A DNA stretch of 64,000 bases from Coriobacteriia bacterium (GTDB lineage Bacteria > Actinomycetota > Coriobacteriia > Anaerosomatales > Anaerosomataceae), in contig JAUSOQ010000028.1 in the NCBI GenBank assembly GCA_030655755.1, positions 1 to 64,000 of the forward strand. Reading direction: 5' to 3'. Positions 8,982 through 23,828 of this stretch are shown here, one piece after another (positions within the stretch are counted from its first letter, which is position 1; every line of letters starts with the position of its first letter). Made by a program: the position numbers and the translations under genes. The notes below the pieces were generated by a model that was not told the origin of the DNA, ran no database searches, and saw only the letters and a program-made list of their open reading frames with translations.

Positions 8982-9107
8982 CGGGCTCCCCTCGGACATG
9001 CGTGATTGCGTACCCTGTCATTCTAGCTGTTTCGTCCGCGCTCATGTTGCTTCCTGAATCTCACTTCCCAAGGCATCAGACGGCGCGTACTATGGGCCTA
9101 CAACCGA

Positions 9108-9230
9108 ACACGGGTCCTGGGTGCTCAACATCGTTGTTGAGAGAATAGGGAAGTCGGTGAGATTCCGACACGGACCCGCCACTGTGAAGAGGCGCGAGCG
9201 CCTCTGAGTCAGGAACCTGCCCAGGATCTG
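9108..9230 (+). ncRNA. cobalamin riboswitch (aptamer)
   Basis: The segment carries the conserved cobalamin elements in order: an initial GGGTCCTGGGTGC, an AGGGAAGTCGGTGAGATTCC core, the B12 box GCCACTGTGA (9178-9187), a variable GAGGCGC/GCGCCTC hairpin, and the closing GTCAGGAACCTGCCC. It precedes the cobalamin transporter genes. An intrinsic terminator downstream completes the switch. Confidence 0.93.
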
Positions 9231-9301
9231 CGATGCGGCCTTCGAGGTGGAGGCACGGTCGCTGCCTGCGTGCATGCGTTCCGGCAGACCGAGACACCTT
9301 G

Positions 9302-14396: not shown

Positions 14397-14440
14397 GCAT
14401 CGCAGTCAGCGTTTTGCCGCGTATCGTGAGGAGACTTCGC

Positions 14441-14686
14441 ATGGCTGTTAAGCTGTACGCCCTTTCCACGTGTCCGTACTGCCGGATGACGCGCAAGTAC
14501 CTCGAGGACAACGAGGTCGTGTTCGATCTGGCCGAGGTCGATCTGCTCGAAGGTCAGGAACGGGCAGACACGATCGCGGAGGTGAAAGCACTCTCAGGCG
14601 GTACATCGTTTCCTGTGGTCGTCATCGATGGGGAAGTGGTCGTCGGCTTCAATAAGAAGAAGATCAAGGAGCTGCTCGTCCTATGA
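14441..14686 (+). CDS. glutaredoxin-like protein
   Basis: This is an 81-residue thioredoxin-fold protein with the active site CPYC (STCPYCRMTRKYL), the cis-proline segment TSFPVVVIDGEVVVGF and the expected length of a glutaredoxin or NrdH-like protein. It overlaps the next gene (ferredoxin-thioredoxin reductase/Rieske fusion) by four bases, so the two products are probably made together and may exchange electrons. The start follows GAGGAG. Confidence 0.85.
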   Translation: MAVKLYALSTCPYCRMTRKYLEDNEVVFDLAEVDLLEGQERADTIAEVKALSGGTSFPVVVIDGEVVVGFNKKKIKELLVL

Positions 14687-15360
14687 GTGGCAAAACCGAT
14701 CGCCTGGTCCGCCAACGCTTCGCACCGGGAACCACCACTGAAGACCTCAAGGCGTACATGGCGCCGTTCGTGGCTACGCTCGGTTACAAGTTCAACACCG
14801 AAGACGAGTTCGTTGACGAGGTGCTCGCTTCCGAGCTCGAGATCATGGAGAAGACCGGTGACGTGTTCTGCCCGTGCAGGATCAGGACCGGCGACCCCAA
14901 AGAAGACGCGAAGATCGTCTGTCCGTGTATCCCGTTCTACCTCGAGCAGTTCGCCGCGATGCGTAAGTGCTGGTGCGGCCTGTTCATCCGCACGGATGTA
15001 GAGGATGGCGCGGAGCTTATCGGTGTGATCGAAGAACCTGAGGACGGCGTGCCCGTTGACGTGCCGGTCTGTCGCGTAGAGGATCTGGCCGATGGGCAGG
15101 TACGTCACATCAAGATCGGCAAGCGCGATATCGCGCTCGTTCGGGTGGGCGAGGAGTACTTCGCGCTCTCCAACCTATGTCGCCATGCGTACGGGCCACT
15201 TTCCGACGGTGTCCTCGATGGCTGCTACCTGATGTGTCCCTGGCATGGCTGGCGCTATGACGTGCGAGACGGCAGTACCGATCATCCTGATGCGGACGTG
15301 CGGACGTACGAGGTCGTGATGCGTGACGGTCTGGTCATGGTGGTGGTGACGTTACACTAG
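14683..15360 (+). CDS. ferredoxin-thioredoxin reductase catalytic subunit fused to a Rieske domain
   Basis: The 225-residue protein has two parts. Residues 1-110 carry the FTR cysteine set: CPC at 63-65, CPC at 80-82 and CWC at 96-98, within DVFCPCRIR, IVCPCIPF and RKCWCGLF. In FTR these bind a [4Fe-4S] cluster and form the redox-active disulfide. Residues 128-225 are a Rieske-type [2Fe-2S] domain with C-x-H at 166-168 (CRHAYGPL) and C-x2-H at 185-188 (CPWHGW). A fused Rieske could feed electrons to the FTR centre, which then reduces the neighbouring glutaredoxin. That route is inference. No separate variable FTR chain is seen. Confidence 0.82.
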   Translation: MSGKTDRLVRQRFAPGTTTEDLKAYMAPFVATLGYKFNTEDEFVDEVLASELEIMEKTGDVFCPCRIRTGDPKEDAKIVCPCIPFYLEQFAAMRKCWCGLFIRTDVEDGAELIGVIEEPEDGVPVDVPVCRVEDLADGQVRHIKIGKRDIALVRVGEEYFALSNLCRHAYGPLSDGVLDGCYLMCPWHGWRYDVRDGSTDHPDADVRTYEVVMRDGLVMVVVTLH

Positions 15361-16879: not shown

Positions 16880-17782
16880 CTAATTCGCGACTCGATCTTC
16901 ATTCTCGCCGAGCGGGGACATCCCACGTTCGGCGGCCACGGCGTCGAGAGCCAGCATGACGACCTCTTCGACGACCGGATCGACCGAGAAACCAAGGTCC
17001 TTCTCAAACGACGTCTTCAGGTAGCCGTGGCACGTTTGGCAGGTGTGGATACGATGTCCCTTGTCCTGCTCGTCGAGAAGGTACTCAAGTTTGGCATGCG
17101 AACGTTCGCCGCACCTTGAGCAGCGGAGGCGGGTGAAGCCCCACTCGGCACGACACAGCGGGCATGAGAGCATACGAACGCCGCCCTGCAGTGCGCCGCT
17201 GTCCAGCACTCGACCGGAAGACGCAGGGGTGCTGCAGACAGGGCAGAGTCCGGAATCCCAGCGCGTCCAGTCGAAGTCCTTGAGGGGCTTCAGCGCTTTC
17301 GTTGCGCTGGCGGCGATGAACGGTGTGAGTGCAGTGGTCACGACGAACGAGTATGTCGTCAACGGCACGCCGGCGTCTTCTCCGCCCAACTTGTCGTACA
17401 TGGTCGAGATGAAGGCATCCACGCCCTTCAGGATGTCGGCGACCATCTCTTCGGTGACAGCAGTGTCGAAGTCAGCGTCCTTCAATACATCGGCGTGCTC
17501 AAGCGGTAGACCACCCTCGTTTGCAAGCAGACTGGAGACCGAGTGTAGTGCGACGCGGAACGCCTCAGCAGGTACGAGTGGAGCCGAGATCGCAAAGACG
17601 ATGCGACCCGACGCCAAAGCACTTTCTACCTCGTTGGCTGCAGGCGGCTGCCAATCGGGCGCTTCTTGTGCGATGGAGTCTTGAAGAGTCCAGAGTTTCT
17701 CGAAGAAAGAGAGCGTAGGAGCCATGTCTGGACGGGTCTCACTGTAGCGCTGGATGGATTTCGAGCGCAGGGAAGGAGTCAT
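16880..17782 (-). CDS. fdhE: formate dehydrogenase accessory protein FdhE
   Basis: FdhE is a rubredoxin-like zinc/iron protein needed for activity of respiratory formate dehydrogenases. The 300-residue product carries the expected cysteine pairs in its C-terminal half: CPVC, CPLC, CSRCGE and CQTCHGY, the four knuckles of the family. The ATG at 17782 is preceded by GGAGGTAGT; codons upstream to 17926 lack support. The gene lies 1.4 kb from fdhI-H-G, same strand, separated by the selenoprotein pair on the other strand. Confidence 0.85.
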   Translation of the reverse strand: MTPSLRSKSIQRYSETRPDMAPTLSFFEKLWTLQDSIAQEAPDWQPPAANEVESALASGRIVFAISAPLVPAEAFRVALHSVSSLLANEGGLPLEHADVLKDADFDTAVTEEMVADILKGVDAFISTMYDKLGGEDAGVPLTTYSFVVTTALTPFIAASATKALKPLKDFDWTRWDSGLCPVCSTPASSGRVLDSGALQGGVRMLSCPLCRAEWGFTRLRCSRCGERSHAKLEYLLDEQDKGHRIHTCQTCHGYLKTSFEKDLGFSVDPVVEEVVMLALDAVAAERGMSPLGENEDRVAN

Positions 17783-17959
17783 ACTACCTCCATGGTGGGT
17801 TGCCGGTTTGAGGTTTTTATCCTCTGACAGGGTACCGCAACACCTCGCTGGGTACCAGGTCTCTGTGCCGGTTTGCCACGTTGGAAAAGAAGCCCAGTGG
17901 GTACAATAGTCCCAGCCCAAAAGCACAGGTCCGGTAATCCGATAGGTGGAGGTGAAGGT

Positions 17960-18556
17960 GTGCAGCGAAAACGCATCTGGGTTTTAGGCGTGGTCCTGAC
18001 TGCTGTAGCGGTGATGGCGCTACCATTGACGGGCTGCACCACGGACAGCACGGGAGCGACAGATGCGGACACGACGGCTGACCTGCCCGCTCAGGACGGT
18101 CTGGAAGTCGGCATCATAGCGCCGGATTTCCGCATGCAAAGCCAAGATCAAGTCACGGTCGCTCTTAAGGACTATGTAGGCACGAAGAACGTGGTCGTGG
18201 TCTTCTATCCGGCGGATTTCACCCCGGTTTGAGAAGGCGAGCTGTCCGGGTACCGTGACAACTACCAGTTCTTCCAAGATCGCGACACCGAGGTCTTCGG
18301 CGTCAGCCTTGACGGATGGGCGTCCCATGCAGAGTTCCGCAAGCAGTTGGAGATCCCGTTCGATCTGCTCAGCGATTGGGACCGTACGACGACACCCAAG
18401 TTTGGAGCGTTCAACGAGCTTCAGATACTCGCGAATCGTTGGAGCTACCTGATCGACAAGGACGGCACGATCATCTACACCCAGCACTCGGGTCTCAATG
18501 AACCCCGGGACATCGACGCCATGATGGAGGCCGCCGACAAGCTCTTTGCGGAGTGA
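17960..18556 (+). CDS. selenocysteine-containing peroxiredoxin lipoprotein (in-frame TGA at 18230-18232)
   Basis: Read through the TGA, this gene gives 198 residues. A GTG start at 17960 follows GGAGGTGA. A signal peptide ends in a lipobox (PLTGC, Cys26), then an AhpC/TSA-fold domain follows. The catalytic motif P-x3-T-x2-C is present as PADFTPV plus the TGA codon (P84, T88, U91), so the TGA replaces the peroxidatic cysteine exactly. The catalytic arginine (R160 in NRWSYLID) is also present. The frame stays open with good peroxiredoxin sequence to a TGA at 18556. There is no other cysteine in the mature protein after Cys26, so reduction would need an external thiol, probably the thioredoxin lipoprotein encoded next. 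A hairpin just after the TGA is a plausible SECIS. A nonsense mutation is the alternative but is unlikely. Confidence 0.85.
18230..18260 (+). promoter_or_regulatory. UGA-Sec codon and candidate bacterial SECIS hairpin
   Basis: Bases 18243-18249 pair with 18253-18260 (seven pairs, one bulged T at 18256), leaving a GTA apical loop that starts 18 bases after the TGA. A loop G at the first position and this spacing match the general bacterial SECIS pattern, where the element lies inside the coding region just after UGA. An alternative outer stem pairs GAGCTG (18239-18244) with CAGTTC (18266-18271). Confidence 0.6.
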
Positions 18557-18612: not shown

Positions 18613-19053
18613 ATGAGAAGAGTTATCAGCACGGTGCTTGCTCTGGCGTTCCTCGCCAGCATGGTGGTGCTTCCCGGTTGTAGCAGTGCTCCCGAGGAGA
18701 AGGCGCCCCTGACGTTCATGCAGTTCTTCGATCCCGAGTGTCCGTTCTGCCAGGCGATGGAGCCCATCGTCGCGAGCTTGCGCACGGAGTACGAACCGAA
18801 GATAGAGAGTTTCCAGATCATCGATGTCTCTACCGACGAAGGCCGGGTCCAGGCCGAGGAGTACGGCGTGTTCATCACGCCGACCTTCTTCCTACTTGAT
18901 GCGGACGGTAAGATCTTAGACAAGATCTCCGGTGCGGCTACCGAAGAGAACATGGTCAAGTTCATCGACCGCGGTATAGCCGATGTGACGGGTGAAGCCA
19001 CTGGTTCCCGGGAGACGATTCCGACCGAGGGTGGCACGGAGCAGACGCAGTAG
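18613..19053 (+). CDS. thioredoxin-fold lipoprotein
   Basis: The 146-residue protein has a signal peptide with lipobox (LPGC, Cys23) and a thioredoxin fold with active site CPFC at 43-46 (DPECPFCQAM) and the cis-proline region FITPTFFLLDADGK. It would sit on the outer membrane face beside the peroxiredoxin encoded 57 bases upstream and is its obvious reductant. The ATG at 18613 follows AGAGGAGGAAAG, an excellent site, so the longer frame from 18553 is rejected. A strong terminator follows. Confidence 0.85.
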   Translation: MRRVISTVLALAFLASMVVLPGCSSAPEEKAPLTFMQFFDPECPFCQAMEPIVASLRTEYEPKIESFQIIDVSTDEGRVQAEEYGVFITPTFFLLDADGKILDKISGAATEENMVKFIDRGIADVTGEATGSRETIPTEGGTEQTQ

Positions 19054-19139: not shown

Positions 19140-19820
19140 CTAGTCTGCCGAGATATGGTCACCCTTCTGGAACTCTTCCCTTGCCCAGGTGCCCCAGTGG
19201 TACAGAGCGTCGGACTCAGGAACGCGACCATCACCGAACATGAGTCTGACGGAACCACGGTATGGCTGGAACACGCCGGCACCCAGGTAGATGTGGATGA
19301 TCATCAAGAGACCCAACAGAACGAAGGCCACATCGTGAGCCACGAGCATCCACAAGGCCAGGACTCCACTGATCTCGACGCCAGCGGCGGAAAGCCACAG
19401 GAACACGCCGGAGACCGATATGAGGAGAGCCAAAGCCAGGATGATCCAGTCAGAGAACGCCTGGCCGGACTTCAGTTCCTTCTGCTCAGGCATGTGCTGC
19501 TTGGCAGGGCCCAGGAACAGGTATGGGAAGAACTTGCCCATGAACTTCCAGTCATTGGCGTCCCATTTGTAGAACATACACTTCATGAAGTGTATGAAGC
19601 CCTTCGGGTTCACGGCGACACCCAATAGCGGTGCGGCGATGAAGATGACGGCCATCACACGGTGGATGGTCCGCGCACCCTGCATGGCGCCAACGCCGAC
19701 AGACGATGCCACGGCCGGGACGAAGAGCATGATACCGGTCACAAACAGTGACATGCATGCGATCGTGTGGATCCAGTGAAGGCCACGTGCGAACGAACTC
19801 TGGCGCTGTATGTATCTCAT
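19140..19820 (-). CDS. fdhI: formate dehydrogenase cytochrome b subunit
   Basis: This FdnI-like subunit anchors the enzyme and passes electrons to menaquinone. The 226-residue protein has four to five membrane helices and haem-ligand histidines in FARGLHWIHTIACM, TIHRVMAV and MIIHIYLGAG, as in FdnI/FdoI. The ATG at 19820 shares one base with the stop of fdhH (TAATG). Menaquinone synthesis genes are nearby in the same window. Confidence 0.88.
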   Translation of the reverse strand: MRYIQRQSSFARGLHWIHTIACMSLFVTGIMLFVPAVASSVGVGAMQGARTIHRVMAVIFIAAPLLGVAVNPKGFIHFMKCMFYKWDANDWKFMGKFFPYLFLGPAKQHMPEQKELKSGQAFSDWIILALALLISVSGVFLWLSAAGVEISGVLALWMLVAHDVAFVLLGLLMIIHIYLGAGVFQPYRGSVRLMFGDGRVPESDALYHWGTWAREEFQKGDHISAD

Positions 19821-20659
19821 TACTCCACCTCCCCGATCGTCACGGTGTCAGTCTTCTCGTCGTAGGTGTGCTCGCCGCGCTTGTAGCCTAGACCCATGGC
19901 AAAAGACAGGCCGAGGGCAGCGCCGACAACACCAACGCCGACCACACTGAGTGGCTTTGCGAGGTCGAGCAGGCTGGTCGCCGCAGACACCTTCGGGTCA
20001 CGGATGAGACCGTGAGCTTCGAGGCCGCGATGCGCCACGATGATCGTGTGCATACCACCGAGTTCGTCAACGCCGTAGACCTCAGCCTTGGCGAAGCCCT
20101 GATCCTTGAGCACATCCACGCGTGCCTTGGCCTTGGCCACGATTTCGGCACGGTCGCCGTACTCGAGGGCGTTGGTCGGGCATGTGGTTACGCACGCGGG
20201 GGCCTTATCATTGGACGTGCGGTCGAAGCACTGCCAGCACTTGAACGTCTTCGCGTAATCGGTGCCGCCCATGATCTTGGCGCGGGGAATCGAGAACGGG
20301 CAGTTGCTCACGCAGTACTGACAACCGATGCACTTGTCCTGGTCGATGACGACCGCGCCATTGTCCTTGTGGCTGATGGCGCCCACGGGGCAGGCCATCG
20401 CACATGCGGCATCGGTGCAGTGGAAGCATGCGTGACGCATGAAGTTCCACTCAACGCCGATATCCATCGGGACTTCGGCGAAGGTCATGATCAACCACGT
20501 GTCGGGGTCTACATCGAGCGGGGCCTGGTAGCTCTTCGTGAACTCATACTCGTCGGCCGTAAGCGGCGCGGGGAGCTGATTCCACTGCTTGCAGGCTATC
20601 TGGCAACCCTTACAGGCGGTGCACTTGGAGGCGTCATAAAGAATCGCTGTCTCAGCCAT
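19820..20659 (-). CDS. fdhH: formate dehydrogenase iron-sulfur subunit
   Basis: The 279-residue protein carries four [4Fe-4S] cluster motifs: CTACKGCQIACKQWN at the N-terminus, CFHCTDAACAMACP, CIGCQYCVSNCP and CWQCFDR...ACVTTCP. A single membrane helix near the C-terminus (LSVVGVGVVGAALGLSFAMGLG) is like that of FdnH. It wires the catalytic subunit to the cytochrome. The ATG at 20659 follows GGAGGTGTGAC, one base after the fdhG stop; ten upstream codons are not needed. Gene symbols follow FdnGHI by analogy. Confidence 0.9.
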   Translation of the reverse strand: MAETAILYDASKCTACKGCQIACKQWNQLPAPLTADEYEFTKSYQAPLDVDPDTWLIMTFAEVPMDIGVEWNFMRHACFHCTDAACAMACPVGAISHKDNGAVVIDQDKCIGCQYCVSNCPFSIPRAKIMGGTDYAKTFKCWQCFDRTSNDKAPACVTTCPTNALEYGDRAEIVAKAKARVDVLKDQGFAKAEVYGVDELGGMHTIIVAHRGLEAHGLIRDPKVSAATSLLDLAKPLSVVGVGVVGAALGLSFAMGLGYKRGEHTYDEKTDTVTIGEVE

Positions 20660-20660
20660 G

Positions 20661-23600
20661 TCACACCTCCTGCTTCCGGATGTTGACAAGGAACGCCTTG
20701 CTTTCCGGAATCATCGTGTTGGCATCGCCAACGTTCGGAGAGATCTCGTTCGCTGAACCACCGACGGAGCACGTACCGGCATAGCCCCAGTGCCACGGGG
20801 TGCCGATCAGGTGGACTATCTTGCCGCCGATAGTGAACGGCTTGACGCGGCTGGTCACCATTGCGTAGGCCGTGATGGCGCCACGCTTGTTCTCGATGAC
20901 CACGTTGTCGCCGGACACGATGTCCTTTTCCTTGGCCAGTTCTGGCGAGAGTTCGACGAACATCTTCGGCATCGTCTGGACGAGCCACGGCAGGTTGCGG
21001 GTAAGAACGCCCGACTGCCAGTGCTCGGTGACACGGAACGTCGTCATGACGATCGGGAACTCGTCCGCCGTACCGCGGGTCTCCGCCGCCGTCGGGTAGA
21101 TCGTGATGGCGGGATCGCACTGCGTGCCGGACATCTGGTTTTCGTCCGGGCTCTCGAAGGGCTCGTAGTGCTCCGGGAACGGACCGTCCGCCATACCTGA
21201 TGGGGTGAAGAAGCGACCGGCACCCTCCGGCGTCATGATGAACGCTGTCGAGTTCGGCGGAGTCGCTGTGACTGTGCCGTCCGCGGCTGTGACTGACCAG
21301 CCGAAGTCCGGAACGTCGTTGCGAAGCCACTTGGCGCCGTCCCACTTCACGAGGATCTTGCTCTCGTTCCAGGGCTTGCCGCTGGGATCTGCGGATGCGC
21401 GGTTGTAGATGATGCGGCGGTTGACCGGCCACGCGAACGACCATCCGAGGTACGAACCGACGGGCTCAGTGAGTCCTGCGCCTGGCTCGTCGACGTTGTT
21501 GCGGGCACCGGTCGGCTGGTCTGCGGGCTCGTTGGAGTCGTTGTTGTTCCAGTAGCCGGAGTAGACCCAGTTGCCGCATGCGGTGGAGCCATCAGCAGCA
21601 AGCACAGTGAAGTTCTTCAGCAGCTTGCCATCGGCGACTGTGTAGCCGTTGAGCGCGCGGGCGACCTTGGTGATGTCGGCGTGACCGTCGTCACCGATGT
21701 AGTCCCAAGTCAGCTTCGTGATCTGCTCAGGGTTCGCTCCGCCCTCGGCCTCATAGAGCTCCTTGAGCTTGAGAACGAGCTCGGTGCAGATCTCCAGGTC
21801 GTCCTTCTGGTCCTCGCGAGGCTCTACTGCCTTGTAGCGCCACTGGATCCAGCGACCGGAGTTTGCGACCTCGCCCTGCTTCTCGTAGTGACAAGCGGCA
21901 GGGAGCAAGAAGACCTCGGTGTTGATGTCTGCAGGATTGACGCCGGCTGCTTCGGTCCAGAAGATCGATGTCTCGGTCTCCCAGAGGTCGGCACAGACCA
22001 TCCACTTGAGGTTGGCCATGGCCTTGCGCTCCATGCTGCAGTTCGGACCGGCCTGCGCGGGGTTCTGACCCCAGCAGAACAGACCTTCGATCTCGCCGTT
22101 GTACATCTTCTCGAACATCGTGATGTGGCTGTGGTTCGAGCCATCGTACTTGGGAAGCATGTCGTAGGCGTAGTCGTTAGCGGTCGTGGCGTAGTCTCCG
22201 TACAGCTCCTTGAGGAGGCTGATGAAGAACTTCGGCTTGTTGGTCCAGTAACCACCTGCAGGAGTCTCCGTCGTCAGGTAGTCGGTGAGCGTCGGGTGCT
22301 TGACGCTAGTCGACGACGACATGTAACCAGGGACGATGTGGAACAGCAGCGCCATGTCGGTGGAACCCTGGACGTTGGACTCACCACGAAGCGCGTTGAC
22401 GCCGCCGCCTGCTACACCCATGTTGCCGAGAAGCAGCTGGGTCATGGCCATAGCGCGGACGTTCTGTGAACCGTAGGTGTGCTGTGTCTGGCCCATCGCG
22501 TAGAGGATGGAGCCGGCCTTGCCGGGTTCACCGGTGGAGGCGTACAGCGCATAGACTTCGAGCAGCCGCTCAAGCGGGGTACCCGTGATGCTGGAGACGA
22601 GCTCCGGCGTGTAGCGCGAGTAGTGTGCTTTCATGAGCTGCCAGACGCAGTTGGGGTCCGTGAGGGTCGCGTCTTTCTTGGCGTTCTTGATCGTAGGGGT
22701 CGTGAAGGCCGGCGTGCCAGCCTTGTTGACCCATGCCATCTTGCCACCCTCGGCGGTGTCCCACTGAGCTTCGGAATCGATCTGGTAGGACCAGGTCGTC
22801 GAAGCGTACTTGCTGGTTGCCGCGTCGAAGCCGCTGAAGATGCCGTCCGAGAAACTATAGTCCGGCGTTACGAGCCAAGAAGCCGTCGTGTAACTCTTGA
22901 CGTACTCCTCGTGGTACAGGTTGTTCTCGATGACGTAGTTGAACAGACCGCCATAGAAGGCGATGTCTGTTCCCGAGCGGAGCGGAACGTACAGGTCGGC
23001 GACAGCGGCGCTACGCGTGAAGCGTGGGTCGACGACGATCAACTTGCCGCCCTTGAGCTTGGCTTCGGTTATCCACTTCATCGAGATCGGGTGGTTCTCA
23101 GCGCAGTTGGAGCCGTTCACCATCAGAACGTCGGAGTTCTTCAGGTCGACCCAGTGATTCGTCATGGCACCGCGCCCGAATGTGTTGCCCAAACCTTGGA
23201 CAGTGGCGCTGTGGCATATACGGGCCTGGTGCTCGATGAACGTCACGCCGAGCGCGCGAGCGAACTTCTGCACCGCATAGCACTCTTCACCATCAAGACC
23301 TGCGCCGCCGAGGTTACCGATCGCTTCGCAGCGGTTCACGGTAACACCCTTGGAGTCAGTGGTCTCATAGTTGGCGTCGCGAGTCGCCTTGACGCGCTTG
23401 GCGATCTCTTCGACGGCCCACTCCCAATCTTTCACTTCCCACTCGGAAGATCCGGGAGCGCGGTACTGAACCTTTGTCAATCGATACGGGTTTGGTTCAA
23501 GCGCACCGGTCTCAGGGTTGTACACGTTGCGGATGTTGAACTGGGCCGAGCCCTTGGAACACAACGCACCGCGGTTGATGGGGTGATCCGGATCGCCTTC

Positions 23601-23816
23601 AAGGTTCACGAGCTCGCCATCGATGACCGAAAGAACACTGCCGCACCCTACAGCGCAGTAGCAGCAGATAGACGGTGACTCGACGGCACCCTTGATACGC
23701 AATTCCGGAACGGCATCAGCCGCAAGGGCGTTGGCAGGGCCAAAAACCTCGGCCAGGGCACCAGCAGCGAAAGTCGCGCCGGTTAGCTTGAAGAAGCCAC
23801 GCCTGGAAAGGTTCAC
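20661..23816 (-). CDS. fdhG: formate dehydrogenase catalytic subunit, cysteine form, Tat-exported
   Basis: This molybdo- or tungsto-bis-pterin enzyme oxidises formate. The N-terminus has a twin-arginine signal (LSRRGFFKLTG), so catalysis occurs outside the membrane. A [4Fe-4S] motif follows (CCYCAVGCGSVL...ALCSKG). The residue that is selenocysteine in E. coli FdnG is cysteine here, within ARICHSATVQGLG, so no stop codon interrupts the frame. Length (1051 residues) is normal. The GTG at 23816 sits five to six bases after GGAGG and is preferred over the ATG at 23828, which overlaps that site. The fdhG-H-I order implies one operon. Confidence 0.92.
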   Translation of the reverse strand: MNLSRRGFFKLTGATFAAGALAEVFGPANALAADAVPELRIKGAVESPSICCYCAVGCGSVLSVIDGELVNLEGDPDHPINRGALCSKGSAQFNIRNVYNPETGALEPNPYRLTKVQYRAPGSSEWEVKDWEWAVEEIAKRVKATRDANYETTDSKGVTVNRCEAIGNLGGAGLDGEECYAVQKFARALGVTFIEHQARICHSATVQGLGNTFGRGAMTNHWVDLKNSDVLMVNGSNCAENHPISMKWITEAKLKGGKLIVVDPRFTRSAAVADLYVPLRSGTDIAFYGGLFNYVIENNLYHEEYVKSYTTASWLVTPDYSFSDGIFSGFDAATSKYASTTWSYQIDSEAQWDTAEGGKMAWVNKAGTPAFTTPTIKNAKKDATLTDPNCVWQLMKAHYSRYTPELVSSITGTPLERLLEVYALYASTGEPGKAGSILYAMGQTQHTYGSQNVRAMAMTQLLLGNMGVAGGGVNALRGESNVQGSTDMALLFHIVPGYMSSSTSVKHPTLTDYLTTETPAGGYWTNKPKFFISLLKELYGDYATTANDYAYDMLPKYDGSNHSHITMFEKMYNGEIEGLFCWGQNPAQAGPNCSMERKAMANLKWMVCADLWETETSIFWTEAAGVNPADINTEVFLLPAACHYEKQGEVANSGRWIQWRYKAVEPREDQKDDLEICTELVLKLKELYEAEGGANPEQITKLTWDYIGDDGHADITKVARALNGYTVADGKLLKNFTVLAADGSTACGNWVYSGYWNNNDSNEPADQPTGARNNVDEPGAGLTEPVGSYLGWSFAWPVNRRIIYNRASADPSGKPWNESKILVKWDGAKWLRNDVPDFGWSVTAADGTVTATPPNSTAFIMTPEGAGRFFTPSGMADGPFPEHYEPFESPDENQMSGTQCDPAITIYPTAAETRGTADEFPIVMTTFRVTEHWQSGVLTRNLPWLVQTMPKMFVELSPELAKEKDIVSGDNVVIENKRGAITAYAMVTSRVKPFTIGGKIVHLIGTPWHWGYAGTCSVGGSANEISPNVGDANTMIPESKAFLVNIRKQEV

Positions 23817-23828
23817 CCTTACCTCCAT

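Follow-up and report, generated by a model that had tools for sequence, protein, structure and literature searches.

A predicted selenocysteine peroxiredoxin lipoprotein conserved beside formate dehydrogenase genes in Anaerosomatales

The window (the whole 64,000-nucleotide stretch of DNA that was analysed, from a Coriobacteriia bacterium of the order Anaerosomatales) carries a peroxiredoxin (Prx) gene that is interrupted by an in-frame TGA codon (Table 1). The gene reads GTG CAG CGA ... GGC TGC ACC ... TTC ACC CCG GTT TGA GAA GGC ... GCG GAG TGA, and its terminal stop at positions 18554–18556, which lies 107 codons beyond the first TGA, is likewise TGA. The frame, the internal TGA, the codons that follow it and the normal stop are all exactly as claimed in a preliminary description of this DNA. 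Standard-code translation halts at the internal TGA, making this gene a clear case of the standard code cutting one gene in two. When read through, the product includes the motif PADFTPVU together with an NRWSYLID segment that is conserved. The only Cys or selenocysteine (Sec) positions among its 198 residues are C26 of the lipobox and U91.

Table 1 Features of the Prx locus and coordinates of related loci
Feature	Position	Strand	Remark
Predicted Sec-peroxiredoxin lipoprotein gene	17960..18556	+	GTG start, 198 residues, in-frame TGA (predicted Sec), terminal TGA stop
Probable ribosome-binding site AGGTGGAGGTGA	17944..17955	+	4–6 bases 5′ of GTG start; inference from sequence read directly
Lipobox Cys codon	18035..18037	+	Residue 26, LPLTGC; invariant in aligned orthologues
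Pro84	18209..18211	+	P-x3-T-x2-U motif
Thr88	18221..18223	+	P-x3-T-x2-U motif
In-frame TGA, predicted Sec91	18230..18232	+	Peroxidatic residue
Codons +3 to +14 after TGA	18239..18274	+	Presumed SECIS region; synonymous positions nearly frozen
Predicted core hairpin	18244..18259	+	GUC-CGG-[GUA]-CCG-(bulged U)-GAC, loop 17 nt after TGA; structure prediction only
Arg160	18437..18439	+	Aligns with catalytic Arg116 of AhpE
Thioredoxin (Trx)-fold lipoprotein	18613..19053	+	CPFC active site; likely Prx reductant
FdhE-like formate dehydrogenase accessory protein	16880..17926	-	Divergent; ORF, true start may lie inside
Cytochrome b-type formate dehydrogenase membrane subunit, FdnI-like	19140..19820	-	Named from sequence and gene context
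4Fe-4S formate dehydrogenase subunit, FdnH-like	19820..20689	-	Named from sequence and gene context
Formate dehydrogenase-N alpha subunit	20661..23828	-	Twin-arginine-like N-terminus (SRRGFFK), Cys (ARICHS)
Further TGA-containing Prx-like genes	L035:1501-1950, L036:1501-1848, L037:1501-1974, L038:1501-1887		
Further TGA-containing Prx-like genes, continued	L041:1501-1941, L048:1501-1878, L049:1501-1869, L050:1501-1908		

The frame is open on both sides of the internal TGA, which is unremarkable by itself because 99 TGA codons in this GC-rich window are flanked on either side by more than 60 open codons. Homology, however, continues across the codon. A single Pfam AhpC-TSA match (PF00578; residues 50–173, E = 2.4e-33, 115 bits versus a cut-off of 26) spans it, and this is the sole match to that family in the source genome. 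The TGA also aligns with the peroxidatic Cys of AhpE from Mycobacterium tuberculosis (Rv2238c), which is the best match both by sequence (E = 6e-24) and by fold: an AlphaFold model of the Prx (mean pLDDT of 73) retrieves AhpE as its best Foldseek match with E = 5e-15. This places the codon on the AhpE catalytic column, as expected from the earlier assignment of the TGA to the peroxidatic residue of a P-x3-T-x2-U motif, and the alignment of Arg160 likewise bears out the catalytic arginine that had been proposed downstream.

Orthologues were sought in 69 genomes of the Anaerosomatales and in a phylum-wide sample. The order yielded 12 full-length orthologues, counting the window gene, to which the other 11 are 56–77% identical, together with two partial ones, of which one is cut 5′ of the TGA and the other before the 3′ end. 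All 13 orthologues that reach the position carry TGA, with no Cys and no other stop. One genome of another class (G399, from the phylum-wide sample) has an orthologue with both the TGA and the lipobox, bringing the carriers to 14 genomes. Cys occupies the aligned position in cytosolic-looking homologues from Acidimicrobiia, large-genome Actinomycetota and Sumerlaeota, so that the proposed alignment with homologues gives TGA in close relatives, never another stop, and Cys in distant ones. The P-x3-T-x2-U motif and the Arg are invariant across 12 orthologues, and pN/pS is low (about 0.1–0.4) both before and after the TGA. In a midpoint-rooted tree that includes some long branches, the Sec lipoproteins form one clade (support 100/99) outside the group that holds AhpE.

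It is thus homology across the TGA (the AhpC-TSA match, the AhpE column, the conserved codon and purifying selection), and not the open frame, that exceeds chance. A nonsense mutation or pseudogene, in which the two fragments are remnants of a dead peroxiredoxin, would agree with the halt of standard translation at the TGA, but it is extremely improbable given a TGA shared by 14 genomes, selection on both sides, nearly frozen codons after it and the Sec machinery described below. Insertion of another residue, through near-cognate read-through or a reassigned code, has nothing found in its favour and is highly improbable because homologues have Cys at the matching position, the genome encodes tRNA-Sec and SelB, and TGA also ends the gene. 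Conservation leads us to reject both the pseudogene and the alternative-code readings.

Two kinds of match were set aside during these searches. TGA-containing matches at roughly 30% identity in relatives belong to other peroxiredoxin families and are not orthologues, and the TGA that seems to lie within certain Cys homologues from the phylum search (for example, L114 and L115) is an ordinary terminal stop. Separately, the order contains further TGA-containing Prx-like genes (Table 1), comprising Prx-glutaredoxin fusions (AWTPVUT), AhpC-like proteins (DFTFVUP), FNRTFAUPFC types and BCP-like proteins (NTPGUTHE), and it looks unusually rich in Sec peroxiredoxins.

The source genome (2.13 Mb in 81 contigs, with an estimated completeness of 100%) encodes the Sec machinery. 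Genes for selD (362 bits), selA (592 bits), selB (384 bits) and tRNA-Sec(TCA) lie side by side within 5 kb of one contig, and a YedF-like ORF recognized by eye sits between selD and selA. The genome search suggested in the preliminary description therefore recovered selA, selB, selD and tRNA-Sec, and the selenoprotein reading is supported by this machinery together with the conserved TGA. The selD gene carries its own in-frame TGA at the catalytic position (TKSGUAAK).

Among the other TGA carriers, selB is present in full or as a fragment in all but G001, a 70% complete bin with a weak selB match, and most carriers have a selB that scores above the cut-off. The G399 genome holds two full selB copies, and in G025, G023 and G034 selB was recovered as fragments, some of them at contig ends. 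Four TGA carriers yielded no complete tRNA-Sec and selB. One of the genomes with a fragmentary selB, G025, very likely decodes Sec, because the Sec position of its formate dehydrogenase alpha subunit (FdhA) is likewise TGA. Several members of the order have the Sec machinery without the Prx gene. Identical tRNA-Sec sequences with the same downstream flank occur at the ends of contigs C15 and C77 (L001:1501-1637 and L002:1501-1637), representing either a duplication or a repeat at which the assembly was interrupted.

The RNA that follows the TGA carries a signal of its own. In nine family-level orthologues, the rate at which codon pairs for the same residue differ is 0.04 in codons +3 to +14, compared with a median of 0.41 over all 135 windows of codons. 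No other such window has so low a rate, and permuting the columns gave a value this low once in 100,000 trials. Nearly frozen codons immediately after the TGA are what an overlapping SECIS predicts. In addition, every examined orthologue from the order uses GTT for the Val codon just 5′ of the TGA, and the octamer GTCCGGGT after the Prx TGA recurs at nearly equal distance past the Sec TGA of selD in the same genome.

The predicted hairpin in this region conforms to published bSECIS rules, which specify a loop of 3–9 nt with G in its first two positions, a distance of 16–37 nt from the UGA and an MFE of −7.5 or below (PMC13188914). Its loop is GUA, 17 nt from the UGA, and its predicted energy is −8.8 kcal/mol. 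Under these rules 7 of 13 orthologues pass, as do 48 of 184 control positions (26%), so the scan is too unspecific to discriminate. Folding found the post-TGA RNA of the Prx gene no more stable than shuffled sequences, the same simple hairpin fits neither G399 nor members from three further families within the order, and an Rfam scan of the region for SECIS or other RNA returned nothing relevant. The SECIS hairpin structure is unproven, and the codon constraint is what we take as evidence for a probable SECIS here. The pattern TTGA-N-CCGGGT has 44 matches in the genome versus 18 for a reversed control. Those tied to known Sec codons are only the ones in the Prx gene and selD, and the 15 of the 44 matches that were inspected included no convincing further selenoprotein.

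Taken with the machinery and the conserved UGA, this codon constraint makes it almost certain that the Prx is decoded with Sec. Peroxiredoxin selenoproteins with a TxxU motif are an established family (PMC1794560, PMC13188914). PrxU of Eubacterium acidaminophilum (NF040737) and the TxxU family resemble the window Prx in having an AhpC/TSA domain, a PxxxTxxU motif, a peroxidatic Sec and mostly anaerobic hosts. However, the window Prx scores 65.3 bits against the PrxU equivalog NF040737, below the cut-off of 270, and differs from PrxU in its N-terminal lipobox, its formate dehydrogenase locus and its adjoining Trx-fold lipoprotein. Like AhpE, a 1-Cys Prx, it has a single peroxidatic residue with matching Thr and Arg. 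Unlike it, it has Sec in place of Cys and a lipobox, which the compared AhpE chain lacks. AhpE provides its nearest solved structure, yet the tree, with some long branches, puts the Sec clade outside the AhpE group. BCP/PrxQ peroxiredoxins share the AhpC/TSA domain and lie on the same side of the midpoint-rooted tree as the Sec clade, but the class relatives have a C-x4-C resolving pair, where the window Prx has Ser at the second position and no resolving Cys.

The lipobox, which was recognized by eye, retains its Gly-Cys in all 12 aligned orthologues, and these share no other invariant Cys, in keeping with the earlier view of a lipobox protein with a mature domain otherwise free of Cys. The Prx is very probably a lipoprotein, with its lipidation and its location outside the cytoplasm suggested by this motif. 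Lipoprotein forms of Sec-Prx are not mentioned in two recent reviews (PMC13188914, PMC9312934), though the literature at large may contain them, and the paper describing the Anaerosomatales makes no mention of selenoproteins (PMC9686372). What seems new is the lipoprotein clade linked to formate dehydrogenase; Sec-peroxiredoxins as such were already known. Here an anaerobic actinobacterial lineage would hold a peroxidatic Sec outside the cytoplasm by means of a lipid anchor.

The preliminary description included neither a conserved partner lipoprotein nor a formate dehydrogenase neighbourhood. The Trx-fold lipoprotein is directly downstream of the Prx in every examined locus that reaches past the gene. 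In loci of adequate length, this pair is flanked by the fdhE-like gene, which is divergent, and by an fdhI-fdhB-fdhA cluster, which is convergent, and the loci of the order that are long enough have the synteny FdhE-Prx-Trx-FdhI-FdhB-FdhA. The alpha subunit encoded in the window scores 1176 bits against TIGR01553, for which the cut-off is 814. The G399 genes run prx-trx-fdhA-fdhB-fdhI along a single strand, and TGA occupies the active sites of three predicted selenoproteins encoded by adjacent genes, namely Prx (TPVU), Trx (UPRC, L121:962-1330) and FdhA (ARIUHS, L121:1416-4460). Because the linkage occurs in two classes in which the genes are oriented differently, a functional tie is favoured over inheritance of a frozen locus.

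These observations suggest a mechanism in which SelB and Sec-tRNA(Sec) would read the UGA of codon 91 as Sec, directed by a SECIS overlapping the codons just after it. Export and lipidation at C26 would then leave the protein anchored to the outer face of the membrane, where Sec91, activated by Thr88 and Arg160, would reduce hydroperoxides, as its family and conserved residues indicate. It would probably work as a 1-Cys-type enzyme like AhpE, in which case an external thiol must resolve the selenenic acid, because the protein has no resolving Cys. The best candidate donor is the downstream CPFC Trx lipoprotein, and on the strength of gene linkage this neighbour is likely to be the reductant. 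The pair may remove peroxides near the adjacent Mo/W-Fe-S formate dehydrogenase, or keep that enzyme reduced; gene linkage gives such protection a modest edge in our judgement. We put the probability of the entire chain, from a lipid-anchored extracytoplasmic 1-Sec Prx through reduction by the Trx lipoprotein to protection of formate dehydrogenase, at roughly 0.6.

Two other roles for a genuine selenoprotein have to be weighed against protection of the dehydrogenase. The pair could form a general envelope peroxidase, linked to formate dehydrogenase through shared anaerobic, selenium-dependent regulation. With no other PF00578 match in the genome, the Prx could carry such a general role, but the linkage persists in two classes whose gene orientation differs, which makes this unlikely. 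Alternatively, the Prx might serve in maturation of the dehydrogenase or in thiol/selenol upkeep instead of peroxide removal, keeping the Cys/Sec or Fe-S ligands of the enzyme reduced during assembly outside the cell. The fixed linkage to formate dehydrogenase and FdhE-like genes and the Trx-fold partner fit this role. We nevertheless consider it improbable, since the full P-x3-T-x2-U motif and Arg are invariant, the role of these residues in the family is to reduce peroxides, and the single redox residue of the Prx is unsuited to dithiol exchange.

If the protective role is correct, the Sec-Prx and Trx lipoproteins might form a dedicated selenium peroxidase system outside the cytoplasm that arose as a respiratory formate dehydrogenase module and guards this oxygen-sensitive enzyme, with the Trx also a selenoprotein in one lineage; we offer this only tentatively. 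The locus allows a connection between selenium use and the protection of formate dehydrogenase from peroxides to be tested. It also provides a natural Sec-to-Cys series, in which FdhA and Trx have Sec or Cys depending on the relative and the Prx has Sec in every member found. Among FdnGHI-type enzymes, the alpha subunit contains Sec in G025, G035 and G399, whereas that of the window has Cys (ARICHS), apparently a Sec-to-Cys change next to a gene in which Sec was retained. For a cultivated Anaerosomatales strain, thiosulfate or sulfur reduction has also been considered as a possible function of its FdnGHI-like complex (PMC9686372), and the substrate of the neighbouring complex is therefore a homology assignment.

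A search for plasmid DNA gave no match. Elsewhere in the window, positions 14414–15360 hold a glutaredoxin-like gene followed by a gene for a ferredoxin-thioredoxin reductase catalytic (beta) domain fused to a Rieske domain, and both are kept near the Prx locus in several relatives. A cobalamin riboswitch (82.5 bits) lies at positions 9102–9238 on the + strand.
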